A DNA stretch of 32,022 nucleotides from Oscillospiraceae bacterium (GTDB taxonomy: Bacteria > Bacillota > Clostridia > Oscillospirales > CAG-272): the NCBI GenBank assembly GCA_015063765.1, contig SVTN01000006.1:1-32022 (forward strand), read 5' to 3'. Made by a program: the position numbers and the translations under genes. Below the pieces are notes generated by a model. That model did no database searches. It was not told the DNA's origin and worked only from the letters and a program-made list of their open reading frames with translations. Shown piece by piece: positions 15,310 to 26,089 of this stretch (the stretch's first letter is position 1; each line of letters opens with the position of its first letter).

Positions 15310-15759
15310 ATGCAACGGTTTGACAAGGAGAAATATGCGGCGTACGCGAACAAAAGAGCGGGGCGCTCCCCCGTTTTGAAAAATCTTTTGTTTGCCTTTT
15401 TGATCGGGGGCGGCATTTGCCTTCTCGGCGAAGCGCTCTTTTCGCTTTACGTGTATTTGGGGCTTGCGGAAAAAACGGCAGGTGTTACGGTCACAGTCAG
15501 CCTGATCTTCCTCTCGGCACTCTTTACCCTCCTCGGCGTCTTTGACCGTATCGCCCGTGTGGCGGGCGCGGGGACCCTTCTCCCCGTGACGGGCTTTGCA
15601 AACGCCGTCGTTTCCCCCGCGATGGACAATAAAAGCGAGGGCTTCGTCATGGGCGTCGGGGCAAAAATGTTTATCGTTGCAGGCCCTGTGCTTGTGTATG
15701 GCACGGCGGCAGGGGTTTTGCTGGGTGTGGCGCTCTACGTGGTCGGATTGTTTCAATAA
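15310..15759 (+). CDS. spoVAC: Stage V sporulation protein AC (SpoVAC) family membrane protein
   Basis: LLFAFLIGGGICLLGEALF ... ALFTLLGVFDRIARVAGAGTLLPVTGFANAVVSPAMDNKSEGFVMGVGAKMFIVAGPVLVYGTAAGVLLG is SpoVAC-like. Start ATG 15310; the longer track ORF reads antisense through the NahK-like gene. Confidence 0.9.
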   Translation: MQRFDKEKYAAYANKRAGRSPVLKNLLFAFLIGGGICLLGEALFSLYVYLGLAEKTAGVTVTVSLIFLSALFTLLGVFDRIARVAGAGTLLPVTGFANAVVSPAMDNKSEGFVMGVGAKMFIVAGPVLVYGTAAGVLLGVALYVVGLFQ

Positions 15760-15773
15760 AGGTGCTGTCTCGG

Positions 15774-15863
15774 CAAGAATAGAGAAAAAGGAACGTGGTT
15801 TTCGTTTGGAAACCAAGTTCCTTTCGCTTTTTGAAAAAAAGCGGCTTCGCATCTCTATTCTTG
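15774..15863. other. Structured non-coding element with potential three-way junction
   Basis: Outer perfect 12-bp inverted repeat caagaatagaga (15774-15785)/tctctattcttg (15852-15863) enclosing a 17-position stem-loop (15787-15824, one mismatch) and an 8-bp stem-loop (15825-15843). Confidence 0.7.
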
Positions 15864-15918
15864 TGTTTTTAGCAAAGGGGCTTGTCAGATTTAGAACAGA
15901 ATTTTTCGTTCTCCGAGC

Positions 15919-16028
15919 GTAAACGAGAAAAAACAATTGATAATTGTTTTTTCGAAGTGCTTAACTGAAATAAGAAGAAATGAAGTGAGGCTATGCCGAA
16001 CGCACATTTCGACTGTATTTCAGGAAGT
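15919..16028. repeat. 110-bp direct repeat, copy 1 (contains two hairpins)
   Basis: gtaaacgagaaaaaacaattgataattgttttttcgaagtgcttaactgaaataagaag...tatttcaggaag; matches 16069-16178 at 99/110 positions by hand alignment, no gaps. Confidence 0.9.
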
Positions 16029-16068
16029 AAAGGCGTATATATATACGTCGAGCGAGGAAACGGAAAAG

Positions 16069-16178
16069 GTAAGCGAGAAAAAACAATTGATAATTGTTTT
16101 TTCGAAGTGCTTAACTAAAACAAGAAGAAATGAAGCGAGGCTGTGCCGAGTGCGCATTTCGACTATGTTTTAGGAAGC
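16069..16178. repeat. 110-bp direct repeat, copy 2 (contains two hairpins)
   Basis: Offset of exactly 150 bp from copy 1; 11 substitutions, no indels. Confidence 0.9.
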
Positions 16179-16246
16179 GCAACAAAAATTGATTATAACG
16201 GAGAAAACCGTAGGTTTTCAACCTTGAAATTCAAAGGCGCAAAAGT

Positions 16247-16273
16247 AAAGGCAGGAAACAAGCTCCTGCCTTT
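16247..16273. terminator. Terminator hairpin downstream of the minus-strand lipoprotein
   Basis: aaaggcagga-aacaagc-tcctgccttt. Confidence 0.75.
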
Positions 16274-16325
16274 TGTTTATCAATTCCTTTTTTGTTTGCG
16301 GTTATGCCTAAATGTGACAGCCCAT

Positions 16326-16709
16326 TTATTCCTCGGGGACGAAGATGAGAACATAATCTCCAACAAAGAGCGTCAAATTGGTCACGGTTTCGCCCTTGCT
16401 GTTCTCACCGACGGTGACGAGGGCGCGTCCCTTGACGTGATCTAATGTGATGTGATAGTCCGCAGAGGTGGGGGAAAATTCGTCTCTTTCCGAATAAGTA
16501 CCCTTGTAGGTATCCTCGTATTTGGTATCCGTGAAGGTGAGCTTGCCGCCGCCGGCGGTCAGTGTTCCGGTAATGTGGATCTCTTCCTCACCCTTTGTGA
16601 CCGAGAAAAGCTCCCAATCGTATTTTTGAATTCTCGGCGTATTGCCGCAAGCGACAAGGGAGAGGGTAACGAGAATGAAGGAGAGAAGAAGGGCAAGCGT
16701 TTTTTTCAT
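16326..16709 (-). CDS. Small lipoprotein of unknown function
   Basis: MKKTLALLLSFILVTLSLVACGN: signal peptide with lipobox (LVAC). Confidence 0.75.
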   Translation of the reverse strand: MKKTLALLLSFILVTLSLVACGNTPRIQKYDWELFSVTKGEEEIHITGTLTAGGGKLTFTDTKYEDTYKGTYSERDEFSPTSADYHITLDHVKGRALVTVGENSKGETVTNLTLFVGDYVLIFVPEE

Positions 16710-24823: not shown

Positions 24824-26089
24824 TTAAGATCTCGGTTTTCCGCACTCGGCGCAGAATTTACCCTCGTTTTCTGCACCGCAGGAGCAGGTCCATTTGCCGT
24901 CATCGGGGCGCTTTGCGCCGCACTCGGAGCAGAACTTACCCGTGTTTTCCTTGCCGCAGGCGCATTTCCATGCCCCTGCGGGTGCGGGCTTGGGGCTTCC
25001 GCACTCGGAGCAGAATTTGCCCGTGTTTGCTTTTCCGCAGGCGCATTTCCAGCCGCCCTCGGCAGGTGCCTTGGGTGCTTCCGCGGCTGCCATATTGTAG
25101 AGGTTCTGTGCCGAGGCGCCGCCCGCGACGGACGCCATATTCATGCCCATAAAGCCGACCATCGCACCGCCGTCGTTGCCTGCCGCCGTCTTCATTGCTT
25201 CTGCCTGTGCGTCGACGAGCGCGGCGGCACCCATGGATGCGTTGCGGTAGACTGCCTTCTTTTGCAGCTCCTTGATCATCTCCTCATCCTCATCCGAGGC
25301 GGTGGCAGAGCCGATGCCGACAGATACGACCTCAAGACCTCTCTTTTCGGTCCATTCCTTGGAAAGCTCCTCTTTGAGAGCGTCGCGGATGGCGATGGAG
25401 TGTGCGGGGAGCATGCTGTAGCGAATGCCCTGTGCCGAGATGCGGGCAAGAGCGGGACCGAGGTGGGTGAGAAATTCGGTCTTTAATTGCGAGTCAAGCT
25501 CCTCGCGGGTGTAGTCCTCGGTCACGTTGCCCGAAACGTTGGTGTAAAAGAGCAGAGGGTTGGCAATGCGGTAGGAATAGACACCGAACAGACGGATGGC
25601 GATGTCGATGTCAAGCCCGATGGCGTGGTCGACCACGCGGAAGGGAACGGGCTCACGCGTGCCGAACTTGTTGTCCACCAGCTCCTTGGTGTTGAAGTAG
25701 TAGACTCTTTGGTCCTTGGGGGCGTCGCCGCCGAAGGTGAAGCGCTTGCCGATGGTGGCAAAGACCGCCTTGATGCCCGCACCGAGAGAGCCCTCAAAGA
25801 TGCTGGGCTCGGTGGAGGTGTCGTAGATAAACTCGCCGGGCTCGGCACAGACCTCAACGATCTTGCCCTGTTCAACGATCATCATACACTGACCCTCGTT
25901 GACGGCGATCACGGCGCCGTTCGAAATGATGTTTTCCGCGCCCTTCTTGTTCGAGGAGCGACGGGAAACCTTTTTCTGTCCCTTGGTCACAAGAACATCG
26001 GCGTCAAGTGCGTCGGCGTAAAAATATTCCTTCCATTGGTCGCCAAGGGTGGTGCCTGTGGCGGTGAGTGCTGCACGGATCAATCCCAT
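24824..26089 (-). CDS. SPFH-domain protein (YdjI-like / virion-core-protein-like) with three C-terminal zinc ribbons
   Basis: LGDQWKEYFYADALDADVLVTKGQKK ... NEGQCMMIVEQGKIVEVCAEPGEFIYDTSTEPSIFEG; C-terminal triplicate WKCACGKANTGKFCSECG / WKCACGKENTGKFCSECG / WTCSCGAENEGKFCAECG. Confidence 0.9.
   Translation of the reverse strand: MGLIRAALTATGTTLGDQWKEYFYADALDADVLVTKGQKKVSRRSSNKKGAENIISNGAVIAVNEGQCMMIVEQGKIVEVCAEPGEFIYDTSTEPSIFEGSLGAGIKAVFATIGKRFTFGGDAPKDQRVYYFNTKELVDNKFGTREPVPFRVVDHAIGLDIDIAIRLFGVYSYRIANPLLFYTNVSGNVTEDYTREELDSQLKTEFLTHLGPALARISAQGIRYSMLPAHSIAIRDALKEELSKEWTEKRGLEVVSVGIGSATASDEDEEMIKELQKKAVYRNASMGAAALVDAQAEAMKTAAGNDGGAMVGFMGMNMASVAGGASAQNLYNMAAAEAPKAPAEGGWKCACGKANTGKFCSECGSPKPAPAGAWKCACGKENTGKFCSECGAKRPDDGKWTCSCGAENEGKFCAECGKPRS

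Follow-up and report, generated by a model that had tools for sequence, protein, structure and literature searches.

The two direct repeats in the window (the whole stretch of 32,022 nucleotides that was analysed) are probably independent insertions of a non-autonomous, two-hairpin mobile DNA element of about 109 bp into a MITE-like intergenic repeat of a gut bacterium. Direct sequence comparison placed the two inner copies (15919-16028 and 16069-16178) 150 bp apart with no indels, as had been read from the sequence alone. The copies differ at 12 of the 110 positions, not at the 11 counted before, since the last base (16028/16178) also differs; the extent of an inner copy is 109-110 bp and the element itself measures about 109 bp. 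Ten of the 12 differences fall within a 59-nt hairpin, a count on which the sequence-only reading was right. The A/T hairpin and the interrupted 59-nt hairpin that it described in each copy were recovered in the predicted folds (z-scores of -6.6 and -4.7 against dinucleotide shuffles). All three proposed compensatory pairs were retained. Two are unambiguous (15967-16021, G-C to A-T; 15971-16017, T-A to C-G). In the third, the partner of 15986 is 16000 in the predicted fold and the family alignment, instead of 16004 as proposed; the pair is compensatory whichever partner is taken, because both 16000 and 16004 change from A to G. The claim that the four other changes all lie in loops or bulges did not hold, because G15985-C16001 becomes a wobble pair in the predicted fold of copy 2.

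Table 1. Features at the window locus, with positions counted from the first letter of the window.
Feature	Position	Strand	Basis
Outer MITE-like repeat carrying both inner copies	15760..16323	+	Alignment with other outer copies
Inner copy 1, GTAAAC type, stem CTGAAATA/TATTTCAG, later insertion	15919..16027	+	Covariance model, 128.7 bits
Copy 1 hairpin 1, A/T palindrome	15927..15953	+	Fold, covariation
Copy 1 hairpin 2, interrupted, variable tip	15965..16023	+	Fold, covariation
Outer-repeat sequence separating the insertions (1-2 junction bases uncertain)	16028..16068	+	Uninterrupted in empty outer copies
Inner copy 2, GTAAGC type, stem CTAAAACA/TGTTTTAG, earlier insertion	16069..16177	+	Covariance model, 128.5 bits
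Copy 2 hairpin 1	16077..16103	+	Fold
Copy 2 hairpin 2	16115..16173	+	Fold, covariation
spoVAC, 3' end adjoins the outer repeat	15310..15759	+	PF03862, E 8.8e-36
Convergent gene, 3' end adjoins the outer repeat	16326..16709	-	ORF; Pfam search without match

The outer repeat of the window measures 564 bp (346 bp without the inner copies) and occupies the whole spacer from spoVAC to the convergent gene. Its terminal inverted repeats are present but imperfect (AAAGAGGCTGTC / GACAGCCTCTTT), and it contains terminator-like hairpins and a highly paired interior. More than 20 matches were found in the source genome, and 13 of the 30 genomes searched had matches. Outer copies without any inner copy were present on contigs C43, C147, C134 (two), C15 and C27. 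The insertion point of copy 1 was empty in all of these and also in C51, whose outer copy carries copy 2 alone. Three loci have an outer repeat with at least one inner copy, and two of them (C85 and C137, with different neighbouring genes) have both. The inner element occupies points that are left empty in other outer copies; copy 2 was inserted first and copy 1 afterwards, because C51 has copy 2 alone. Empty outer copies could in principle be deletions, yet the absence of inner copies is the commoner state. An empty site in a relative, a check that the sequence-only reading had suggested, was also found: in the relative G019 no outer repeat stands in the orthologous spacer from spoVAC to the convergent gene. 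The outer repeat makes up a large family of its own, and G011 holds dozens of copies of its core of about 120 bp. In the window it abuts stop codons at both ends and may serve as a bidirectional terminator of the convergent genes. Elsewhere in the window, three tandem 77-nt coding repeats (24840-25075, 69-81% alike to the reference copy) sit within a minus-strand ORF (24824-26089).

A covariance model built on 29 copies revealed at least 16 dispersed copies of the inner element in the source genome (a 1.66 Mb MAG in 153 contigs, 75.6% complete), so that the expected further copies do exist. The model matched 47 of the 60 genomes of the genus but only 4 of the 148 other genomes sampled across the order (two from other genera of the same family and two from further afield). 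In this genus the inner element forms a multi-copy family, which can be classed with the small dispersed palindromic repeats. An exact pattern recovered it from three MAGs that bear names, SIG648 plus RGIG4119 and RGIG3844 (both roe-deer caecum bins); viral contigs had no copies. The element has two 5' types (GTAARC...GCTTAAC and GTCMCC...GTAAC) and an almost invariant 3' end (AGGAAG). In several copies the tip of hairpin 2 is swapped for unrelated sequence, and some of these replacement tips (L016, L056) retain the ability to pair. Both stem types of the window recur at other loci, and therefore the compensatory differences between the window copies are mostly older subfamily variation. This disagrees with the divergence in place by compensatory mutation that the sequence-only reading implied; the copies are separate insertions with stem types common to other copies. 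We found no earlier description of the element in the open-access literature, and other papers could hold one.

Stand-alone copies of the element are often close to tRNA genes (5 of 13 loci in the source genome; P about 1e-3, assuming a 15% intergenic share and about 25 tRNA loci), and other copies sit after rpsI and rplQ. Among the 56 copies with enough flank for this analysis, 22 lie between exact direct repeats of 14 bp or more, compared to 4 of 494 control positions at the same loci. In about 12 copies the left repeat stops at the first base of the element or a few bases from it. These junction repeats are 15-51 nt long (about 105 nt with mismatches at rplQ in G004) and correspond to tRNA 5' ends (sense), tRNA 3' ends (antisense, up to the T-arm) or the ends of rpsI or rplQ. 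A gene-end fragment is present at the junction of six of the seven GTCCCC-type copies and at neither window copy. The junction repeats resemble a long, variable target duplication. The flanking target-site duplications anticipated from the sequence alone were not found at the window copies: no clear duplication of fixed length was seen in the window, and lengths elsewhere vary (15-51+ nt).

Several loci show the junction fragments individually. A copy of a tRNA 5' end (26-38 nt), starting 1-3 nt ahead of the mature tRNA end, precedes the element at L010 (C33), L200 (G082), L056 (G019) and L197 (G004). Truncated tRNA-Pro 5' halves lie near element copies at L056 (G019) and L040 (G024). The element is downstream of rplQ in two species (L008 in G000 and L053 in G004); at L053 the rplQ 3' end plus the terminator is duplicated, and L189 (G019) has a similar terminator repeat and may be the same site as the rplQ copies. 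Where copies in more than one species follow the same gene (rplQ, tRNA-Leu), they may have been inherited and not newly inserted, which weighs against the mobile reading. Variant copies at L190 (G019) and at L194, L195 and L196 (G004), whose 3' end runs into CCGTCGGCGAACC or similar, are located at T-arm positions of tRNA genes, antisense. At the source-genome tRNA loci L149 (C118), L156 (C120), L162 (C143) and L151 (C89), the terminator is often continued by a near-perfect palindrome in which the tRNA 3' end is mirrored, whether or not the element is present. Inverted tRNA 3'-end copies past terminators were rejected as an element-specific feature, as they are present also at tRNAs without the element; the palindromes would fit fold-back copying that acts generally in the source genome.

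Simple target-site duplication is a doubtful account of the tRNA copies. At L010 the stretch that separates the element from the intact tRNA is similar to the native leader at the orthologous locus, so that this copy is not plainly an element between two repeats. At the tRNA-Ser locus, the orthologous site in G019 is empty of the element, and the arrangement suggests that fragment and element lie between the promoter and a native-leader-like sequence (the similarity to the leader is modest). Plain target-site duplication does not explain this order of promoter, fragment, element and leader. A possible, although rather unlikely, reading is that the element spreads by template-switching copying, carried out by a reverse transcriptase or occurring at a replication fork. 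The copying would begin on the end of a tRNA gene or protein gene close by, run as far as a GG and then switch to the element, and so leave a gene-end fragment fused to the start of the element.

The covariation among homologues that the sequence-only reading anticipated was strong. Paired cells make up 96% of the 29-copy alignment, and two-sided changes were observed at 17 of the 29 pairs, a number that none of 500 shuffles reached (their mean was 10.4). Shifting the pairing by 1-3 columns destroyed the signal, and the tested pairs underwent 2 to 11 state changes on a copy tree built without their columns. G-U pairs were much rarer in the main helices of the element (6 of 657 paired cells, 0.9%) than in tRNA helices of the same genome (58 of 705, 8.2%; Fisher P about 1e-11, a comparison limited by copy relatedness and base composition). 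Changes in one hairpin arm are matched in the other, and wobble intermediates are almost absent. Compensatory changes in RNA are commonly believed to go via G-U, and template-switch mutation is able to rewrite both arms in a single step (PMC8794818). The near-absence of G-U intermediates points to arm matching at the DNA level or template-switch correction instead of ordinary RNA covariation. Selection on a DNA hairpin would likewise disfavour G-T. From template-switch mutation in hairpins (PMC8794818) one would expect both arms to change in one step and stems to be perfect, free of wobble intermediates, which is its likeness to the pattern here. It has been described for RNA genes, whereas the pattern here is in a mobile DNA repeat, in which such a mechanism may operate.

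The same covariation and the stable fold could also reflect a functional structured RNA (a small RNA, or a 3'-UTR terminator or stabiliser) spread by duplication and kept by selection on the RNA fold, and the position of copies downstream of genes, often by terminators, fits this as well. We consider it improbable. Rfam gave no match at the gathering score, and matches at relaxed thresholds were at chance level. In addition to the scarcity of G-U pairs, the tip sequence of hairpin 2 is variable, hairpin 1 is A/T-rich and unlike a terminator, and the element, which lies inside an outer repeat that is itself dispersed, occurs at some paralogous sites and is missing from others. Of the two readings offered from the sequence alone, the small structured RNA family is disfavoured by the Rfam result and the missing G-U intermediates, and the REP- or MITE-like mobile hairpin is favoured by dispersed copies, strong covariation and both paralogous and orthologous empty sites.

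Compared with known systems, the inner element works in the manner of REP, RUP/BOX/SPRITE and MITE repeats (PMC3733652, PMC3049150) but does not show those defining features of GTAG/CGTC REPs or of MITEs for which it was tested. Described REPs are 20-40 bp long, with a single stem (5-13 bp) and a tetranucleotide tag (PMC3733652), whereas the inner element has 109 bp and two different hairpins. REPs of the GTAG and CGTC types are likewise short dispersed palindromes in spacers, often downstream of genes, and the CGTC type sometimes lacks a dedicated transposase, like the inner element (PMC3733652). A REP moved by a RAYT (Y1 transposase) would agree with short dispersed palindromes with imperfect stems in spacers, and RAYT-type genes are present in some genus members. 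This explanation is nevertheless quite improbable. PF01797 (Y1/RAYT) was not found in the source genome (75.6% complete), the RAYT loci examined had no copy of the element within 1.5 kb, and the element is 2 to 5 times longer than described REPs. The GTAG or CGTC tag is absent from the hairpin feet, which are TAAC and GGAAG in the 29-copy alignment.

Regarding MITEs, the same alignment showed no terminal inverted repeats in the inner element (5' GTAAGC/GTCCCC is not complementary to 3' AGGAAG). The outer repeat does share imperfect terminal inverted repeats and a highly paired interior with MITEs, but its parent transposase was not found: a search for IS1182-type transposase (PF13751), the only family searched for this parent, gave no match in the genus genomes searched. 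An autonomous relative beside the outer-repeat end in G005 (L078, L090) was not apparent on inspection of the listed ORFs, which revealed no obvious transposase. The pneumococcal RUP is a structured non-autonomous repeat of about 107 bp, similar in size to the inner element, and RUP, BOX and SPRITE are enriched between convergent genes, a further likeness; the ends of RUP and BOX resemble those of resident IS, whereas no matching IS was found for the inner element (PMC3049150). The resemblance of the element ends to spliceosomal introns and attC sites was dismissed as coincidence, as GTCCCC-type copies break it.

The exact 150-bp offset without indels would also be expected from a plain tandem duplication of a 150-bp segment followed by compensatory mutation, which is very improbable: the intervening sequence is outer repeat, uninterrupted elsewhere, C51 holds the second copy alone, the stem types of both copies recur at other loci, and local duplication is refuted because the outer copies exist empty and half-filled. 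An assembly artefact of a repeat-rich metagenome might be suspected from the fragmented MAG (153 contigs) and from several genus contigs that end at element copies, and is the least credible explanation, as the element is also in independent MAGs, three of them named, and the window copy lies well inside a 32-kb contig.

Under the preferred reading, a mobile two-hairpin DNA element, copying may proceed via a single-stranded or fold-back DNA state, with mobilisation in trans by a putative enzyme. The lack of terminal inverted repeats weighs against this reading, as do the negative searches for a mobilising enzyme (PF01797 in an incomplete source genome and unlinked elsewhere, PF13751 in the genus genomes searched). 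The match between the arms would be maintained by selection on the DNA hairpin, by one-step template-switch repair of one arm from the other, or by both, and insertion might, more tentatively, often place a copy of the neighbouring gene's end at the 5' junction. As a caution for similar analyses, a bacterial repeat can show strong covariation without being a functional RNA. The dozens of related palindromes, with arms that change together, allow a direct test of whether compensatory changes arise by stepwise selection or by one-step template switching. Should the gene-end fragments at the junctions be a product of how insertion takes place, this would be an unusual way of moving for a small bacterial element; if spread by template switching is true, the junctions would derive from copies of local genes and not from a cut-and-join transposase.
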